Shown: piece after piece, positions 9 through 49,569 of the stretch | Layout of the letters: every line of letters starts with the position of its first letter | Position numbering within the stretch: the stretch's first letter is position 1 | Assembly (NCBI RefSeq): GCF_964019385.1 | Contig: NC_088646.1 | Coordinates: forward strand, 15,435,623-15,499,622 | Reading direction: 5' to 3' | DNA: 64,000 bases | Source: Sycon ciliatum | Lineage: Eukaryota; Porifera; Calcarea; Leucosolenida; Sycettidae | Made by a program: the position numbers and the translations under genes | Notes under the pieces: generated by a model | The model's database searches: none | What the model saw: the letters and a program-made list of their open reading frames with translations, nothing else | Told to the model about the DNA's origin: nothing

Positions 9-20
9 TCCCAGTGCCAT
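9..20 (+). CDS. 12-nt micro-exon m1 (Pro-Val-Pro linker)
   Basis: Acceptor ctgattag, 12 nt coding xPVPx in phase 1-1, donor gtgagt. The same sequence sits at 21594, and variants precede A7-A11. It would join an upstream (off-window) B-type exon to A1. Confidence 0.5.

Positions 21-49569: not shown

Follow-up and report, generated by a model that had tools for sequence, protein, structure and literature searches.

The window considered here, a stretch of 64,000 nucleotides of the Sycon ciliatum genome (C4:15435623-15499622, in a genome of 538 Mb), probably belongs to one large exon-shuffled animal gene, of which it holds the 3' two thirds; the gene would encode an extracellular mosaic protein, and its modules have recently been amplified. 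The locus represents an exon-shuffled, recently amplified mosaic gene family, and one that is known in kind; its introns, together with Kunitz, FN3 and DOMON domains, are in keeping with an animal origin. Coordinates are given in window numbering, with values below 1 lying upstream (genome position = 15435622 + coordinate). A preliminary description of the window had proposed that its modules begin and end in phase 1 within a closed frame, and joining the exons between 9 and 49569 one by one confirms this: 35 exons give 2 nt plus 1788 codons including the stop, with no inner stop. The totals given earlier were about 36 exons and 1796 codons, slightly more than were recovered here. If two candidate linker exons are left out (an m-like one of 12 nt, VPRP, at 43079-43090, and a proline-rich one of 24 nt, VEPPTVPT, at 44084-44107), 33 exons give 2 nt plus 1776 codons including the stop. 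The intron phase is 1 at 32 of the 34 junctions in the window; the remaining two lie inside a DOMON domain.

All of these exons are on the plus strand. The A exons, which encode FN3-like modules, are without exception (11/11) exactly 270 nt long, with AG/GT borders and phase 1 at both ends: A1 (434-703), A2 (2023-2292), A3 (10883-11152), A4 (22026-22295), A5 (23417-23686), A6 (25303-25572), A7 (28764-29033), A8 (32225-32494), A9 (35688-35957), A10 (38442-38711) and A11 (41346-41615), the last being by dS the most diverged A exon in the window. The B exons share these borders and phases and are all (6/6) exactly 228 nt long: B1 (13979-14206), B2 (26937-27164), B3 (30398-30625), B4 (33859-34086), B5 (37305-37532) and B6 (39933-40160). 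Two kinds of short linker exon, also phase 1-1 with AG/GT borders, are interspersed with them. The four P exons of 45 nt are at 1598-1642, 3301-3345, 22745-22789 and 24635-24679; the seven m exons of 12 nt (eight with the candidate at 43079-43090) are at 9-20, 21594-21605, 28450-28461, 31911-31922, 35374-35385, 38094-38105 and 40718-40729. The first of these is not the first exon of the gene, which does not start at base 9; the window covers the 3' part only. The DOMON domain is encoded by three exons of 128, 62 and 251 nt (45593-45720, 46187-46248 and 47859-48109); the introns on either side of the set are of phase 1, and the two within it are of phases 0 and 2, in that order. It is followed by a 24-nt linker exon (RQAPAPAP, 48918-48941) and by the terminal exon T (49307-49569), which ends in TGA at 49567-49569, resembles A in alignment only, at 27% identity to A1, and has no hydrophobic tail.

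The A and B exons stand alone against chance. Among intronic AG..GT intervals of 270 nt, 13 of 224 are open in phase, compared with 11 of 11 A exons, and among those of 228 nt the figure is 25 of 250, compared with 6 of 6 B exons; the copies of each type are related and are thus not independent in this comparison. The P and m exons are not self-standing, because random intervals of such lengths are mostly open (158/277 at 45 nt and 199/238 at 12 nt); they rest on repetition, splice sites and frame, the m exons being the weakest. In five m copies aligned without gaps, 22 of 120 sites differ, as against 59/280 directly upstream and 135/280 directly downstream. A scan for proline-rich linkers gave 10 sense matches in 72 kb of intron and 32 in an 82-kb antisense control; as it does no better in sense than in antisense, single linker exons lean on repetition and frame rather than on the scan. 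Seven of the ten sense matches were placed in the gene model, those left out being at -30427, at -20688 (an alternative start) and at -13472.

Frame-safe duplication of modules, with recent gains, can be read from the sequence of the locus. The youngest expansion consists of four near-identical A-B units at 25278-37595, termed a to d, with an A spacing of 3461, 3461 and 3463 nt and long alignments that are 97.4-99.3% identical. The alignment of units b and c shows 3 differences over 2390 bases, that of c and d 20 over 2332 with a further 60 gap columns, and that of a and b 21 over 1995. The A exons range from identical (A7 and A9) to about 77% alike (A11 and the upstream exon A0, described below). 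Because every unit is a multiple of three nucleotides between phase 1 introns, such duplications keep the frame, as had been proposed for the gain and loss of modules; block as well as tandem duplications are visible, and module pairs of this kind have also been amplified at a second locus. In 52 of 55 A pairs dS exceeds zero, and in these dN/dS is 0.16-0.64; the other three are without synonymous change. In duplicated stretches, exons are less diverged than introns in 8 of 11 comparisons, with p < 0.01 in three of the eight, namely the two big blocks (exons 28/1140, introns 149/3199), B5/B6 and m-A10 versus m-A7.

When the genome was searched with A, all 12 matches fell on C4, and one lay outside the window, 1.5 kb upstream of it; 80 kb of upstream sequence was then analysed. 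The gene model extends 31 kb in this direction. In order, it takes in a Kunitz exon (-31265 to -31098), two LRR-like caps recognized by eye (-29384 to -29288 and -24550 to -24381), a second Kunitz exon (-22320 to -22111; the two Kunitz domains have Pfam E-values of 3.9e-20 and 9.3e-22) and a TIL exon (-21218 to -21036; Pfam 2.1e-11). Seven FN3-like exons follow: F1 (-20184 to -19900), which matches Pfam fn3 over the cut-off (6e-6); F2 (-19717 to -19370) and F5 (-12452 to -12198), which are without a Pfam match; F3 (-17665 to -17393; 5.3e-5), F4 (-16924 to -16628; 0.048) and F7 (-6635 to -6330; 7.5e-4), which match fn3 under the cut-off; and F6 (-11126 to -10848), which was left out of that Pfam run. 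A proline/threonine linker lies at -14171 to -14073, and the A/B array opens with A0 (-1551 to -1276) and B0 (-1051 to -824). Besides the linker at 44084, the whole model includes seven small linkers that are predictions, six of them new ones upstream and the seventh inside the window; it comprises 56 exons over 81 kb with a single open frame of 3003 aa plus the stop. Phase 1 is found at 52 of its 55 junctions; of the other three, the one between the LRR caps is phase 2, and those inside the DOMON are phases 0 and 2. The order of modules is Kunitz, LRR-like caps, Kunitz, TIL, seven FN3-like modules, 19 A/B modules with short proline-rich linkers, DOMON and the A-like end. The gene thus has the marks of a class 1-1 mosaic: introns of one phase flank modules of 3n nucleotides (A 270, B 228, P 45, m 12, Kunitz 168 and 210, TIL 183), and recognized extracellular domains are present (two Kunitz, TIL and the fn3 of F1, all over Pfam cut-offs, and the DOMON). 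The 3003-aa model, which lacks the 5' end, contains no transmembrane-like hydrophobic segment, its highest 19-residue mean hydropathy being 0.9.

The same plan recurs elsewhere in the genome. The window B gave 22 matches, 7 on C4 and 15 on C1, and a C1 form used as the query gave 25, of which 17 fall on C1 and 7 on C4, the last being a doubtful match on C5 (E 0.41); these counts of B-like matches are lower bounds. At the second locus, C1:20188886-20234740, FN3-like exons alternate with B-like ones in two arrays, which a DOMON separates. Exon borders were examined there in 30 kb (C1:20205001-20235000), with a pair choice that favoured phase 1-1 within 6 bits. Of 24 rows picked by pattern, 22 were assigned a phase 1-1 pair, one was a false pick and one had no border pair; the unconstrained best pair is 1-1 in 20 of the 24. 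The C1 DOMON is found as three pieces within 1.8 kb after the first array, breaking where the DOMON exons of the window break. Its third piece is 45% identical to that of the window (1e-15) and, like its counterpart there, has phase 2 to 1 as its best borders; taken singly, the first two pieces match weakly (0.019 and 0.024). The array-plus-DOMON plan therefore seems to be present at least twice in the genome. In a protein database, a composite query retrieved one DOMON protein (P0001, 777 aa, 5.4e-19) among 7988 candidates, and a composite query from the upstream part found no relative among 3321 candidates; since this database seems poor in animal proteins, the scarcity of relatives is no sign of uniqueness.

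The preliminary description had suggested that the structures of A and B be predicted, and neither emerges as a new fold. The predicted structure of A is a seven-strand sandwich that matches FN3 domains, which rules out A as a new fold; a search of solved structures by sequence with A gave no match up to E 10. The predicted structure of B is an FN3/Ig-like sandwich, and its list of fold matches is headed by FN3-type chains, the match being less firm than for A. Single FN3 domains of fibronectin and tenascin are among the fold matches. In profile comparisons, T and B gave nothing significant against A or FN3. We call A and B FN3-like, not members of Pfam fn3. For B there is a further likeness, to the C-terminal sorting domain of the bacterial type IX secretion system (T9SS), and B might on that ground descend from such a domain, laterally acquired and turned into a phase 1-1 exon. 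Six of eight B-family members examined (three from the window, five from C1) match TIGR04183, the T9SS sorting domain, with a best E of 1.5e-4, and four of the eight match PF18962; of nine FN3-like or A-like modules examined, none matches. The TIGR04183 match of the window B spans nearly the entire model, yet its 20.4 bits fall below the curated cut-off of 23, as the 16.9 bits for PF18962 in Pfam fall below 27. Moreover, one common C1 form of B does not match, one pattern scan of GTDB for a relative gave 14 pattern matches and none confirmed, and the fold list has FN3-type chains at its head. The score may come from shape alone, because both folds are Ig-like sandwiches, and a bacterial origin of B is highly improbable.

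The DOMON of the window matches PF03351 with 67.1 bits against a cut-off of 32.7 (2.1e-18). Its M43, at the end of the first DOMON exon, and H131, carried by the third, are invariant in all four DOMONs aligned (two of them joined from genome exons); an alignment to cellobiose dehydrogenase (CDH) covers the Met only and not the His. According to PMC10691727, this Met/His pair coordinates heme b in CDH and is kept in CYBDOM proteins, and is not conserved in sugar-binding DOMONs. By this pair, read from its sequence, the window DOMON is assigned to the heme type. DOMON exons are frequent in the genome, with 39 matches up to E 1, one of them over the cut-off. A cluster of such matches lies on the minus strand at C2:2775394-2890349, with weak FN3-like matches at C2:2798704 and C2:2804371 (E 0.008 and 0.06).

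Several points weigh against the reading of the locus as one gene built by exon shuffling. Every splice junction is predicted from genome sequence. Top-scoring border pairs were used for 7 of the 15 upstream exons; the other eight (TIL, F3, F4, the linker, F5, F7, A0 and B0) use a lower-scoring pair, picked for domain completeness or A/B likeness, and the count of 52/55 leans on these choices, because F3, F4, F5, A0 and B0 became 1-1 thereby. A direct join of F6 to F7 makes TAG, a stop that only a predicted 30-nt linker at -6840 to -6811 avoids. The LRR caps are weak in Pfam (LRR_8 0.049, LRRNT 0.069, no C-cap), and no convincing exon set was found between them, exons there being missing from the model. 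A signal-peptide scan of -52000 to -31300, a region with a 200-N gap at -39999, gave two distinct candidates, the better at -49046, and neither is established. Pfam fn3 found no match up to E 10 in two A exons and one B exon, and none up to E 1 in T. Among B pairs, where dS is at most 0.075, dN exceeds dS in 6 of 15, with very small numbers, and in 3 of the 11 comparisons of duplicated stretches, the three youngest, exons are more diverged than introns (units a/b: exons 10/498, introns 11/1497, p = 0.02); recombination with another A copy may be the cause of this excess. Some of these points would suit two or more adjacent genes, one with the Kunitz, LRR, TIL and FN3 modules upstream and one with A, B and DOMON that has its own promoter and signal exon, the split lying between F6 and A0 or elsewhere. 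Introns of 4-5 kb do separate F6, F7 and A0, and the stop at the direct F6-F7 junction would fit such a border. Against this, the borders chosen keep to phase 1 and no stop interrupts the frame in this region when the proline-rich linker candidates are included, F5 shares the CTTGGCC exon start and the Trp-Pro of A, and a profile comparison puts F5/F6 far nearer to A (73.9% probability) than F1/F2/F3/F7 (7.4%; F4 left out). We regard separate genes as rather unlikely.

Three other explanations were weighed. In a hypervariable recognition gene, modules would vary in number and sequence between individuals by ongoing unequal crossing-over and would serve self/non-self or microbe recognition; the very young units, the second locus with its amplified pair of the same kind, the exon excess between units a and b and the B pairs with dN above dS are what such a gene might show. 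The preliminary description had also raised self/non-self recognition, which finds no support, given that the model has no transmembrane-like segment and that A-exon dN/dS is below 1 in all 52 usable pairs; the comparison is moreover confined to one assembly, and a gene of this sort is improbable. There is a similarly slim chance that the four 3.46-kb units owe part of their number to misassembly, with a repeat wrongly expanded. The near identity of b and c would be expected from this, but the differences between d and c, and between a and b, imply that some unit copies are distinct. That the whole is a decaying pseudogene array, as two LTR retrotransposons in its introns might hint, is scarcely credible: all 11 A and all 6 B exons keep frame and splice sites, A dN/dS is below 1, and the 3003-codon model has no inner stop.

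The larger insertions and neighbouring features are as follows. The intron sequence at 14683-20986 is an LTR retrotransposon, which from its protein we take to be BEL/Pao-like; its LTRs are identical at 275 of 275 bases and an open frame of 1837 aa runs from 15022 to 20535, so that the insertion is very young. A second, presumably Gypsy-like, at 3719-10626, is coded on the minus strand within an intron and has 171-nt terminal repeats that are 99.4% identical; it most likely postdates the block duplication, because the duplicate block is contiguous without it at 25047-25051. A tRNA-Ser-like sequence with anticodon tga, possibly part of a SINE, is found in the intron at 40896-40969. Downstream of the gene, on the minus strand at 52118-53299, a single open frame of 393 aa encodes a Peptidase C13 protein (Pfam 9.1e-43), which we assume to be GPI-transamidase-like. 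Two tandem arrays, at -7604 to -7255 and -55474 to -54641, have open frames in several phases and lie outside the gene model.

Returning to the single shuffled gene, its modules would have been assembled by exon shuffling between phase 1 introns, and block and tandem duplications would then have raised their number, the 3.46-kb units being the newest. Secretion is likely, inferred from the domains. The product may be a rod, long and flexible, in which proline-rich hinges join about 26 FN3-like beta-sandwich modules; its Kunitz/LRR/TIL head would serve for binding or to inhibit proteases, and a DOMON of heme type would lie close to the tail. A role in matrix, mucus or adhesion is the best guess; one in recognition is a slim possibility. 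A bolder form of the proposal, to which we give only a small chance, is a lineage-specific secreted FN3-like/DOMON family whose arrays are still growing and shrinking by unequal crossing-over at two separate loci, so that individuals differ in how many modules they have and in which combinations, in the service of adhesion specificity or of self or microbe recognition. If individuals' arrays do vary, the frame-neutral exon design is what makes the variation tolerable. In any case, the A copies of graded divergence, together with the visible duplications, allow tests of recombination in introns versus within exons and of the pace at which module number changes.

Among DOMON proteins, the window gene shares its Met and His with CYBDOM proteins and the CDH cytochrome domain, as described in PMC10691727 and PMC10784544. 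CYBDOM proteins differ in having a cytochrome b561 membrane core, which the gene model, incomplete at its 5' end, does not have, as no membrane segment is found in its 3003 aa; it is thus not of the CYBDOM type. DOMON proteins also occur within cnidarian matrix and adhesion gene sets, those of coral settlement and of the Hydra basal disc, and LRR and FN3 motifs, as in the window gene, are listed in the Hydra set too; the coral B5 protein is described as type I transmembrane and the Hydra entry has 198 aa, and the passages of PMC3204972 and PMC5080974 that treat them contain no FN3/B array. A heme-type DOMON at the end of long FN3-like arrays is a setting not found among the papers listed in searches of the open-access literature, and the same holds for a description of the gene's domain order and A/B array.

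The arrays themselves have familiar counterparts. Fibronectin and tenascin are built as arrays of FN3 domains, and the window gene is likewise an array of FN3-fold modules, with a fold match for A and, less firmly, for B. It differs from them in having one exon per module, proline-rich linker exons, two alternating module types and a DOMON near the tail, and in that A and B have no Pfam fn3 match. The Kunitz domain is a mobile module of exon shuffling. No mention of it was found in the text of PMC8001218, according to which every type of domain that animals have used in exon shuffling was found to be class 1-1, FN3 being named among the modules. By that account, phase 1-1 modules are the mark by which extracellular proteins assembled through exon shuffling are recognized; for this reason, and because A and B have FN3-like folds, the novel system proposed in the preliminary description is not supported in kind. 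The class 1-1 mosaics treated in PMC8001218 have symmetrical phase 1-1 modules of 3n nucleotides and mainly beta structure, as here, and the locus is a large, fresh example of that known principle, with exon duplication caught in recent action.
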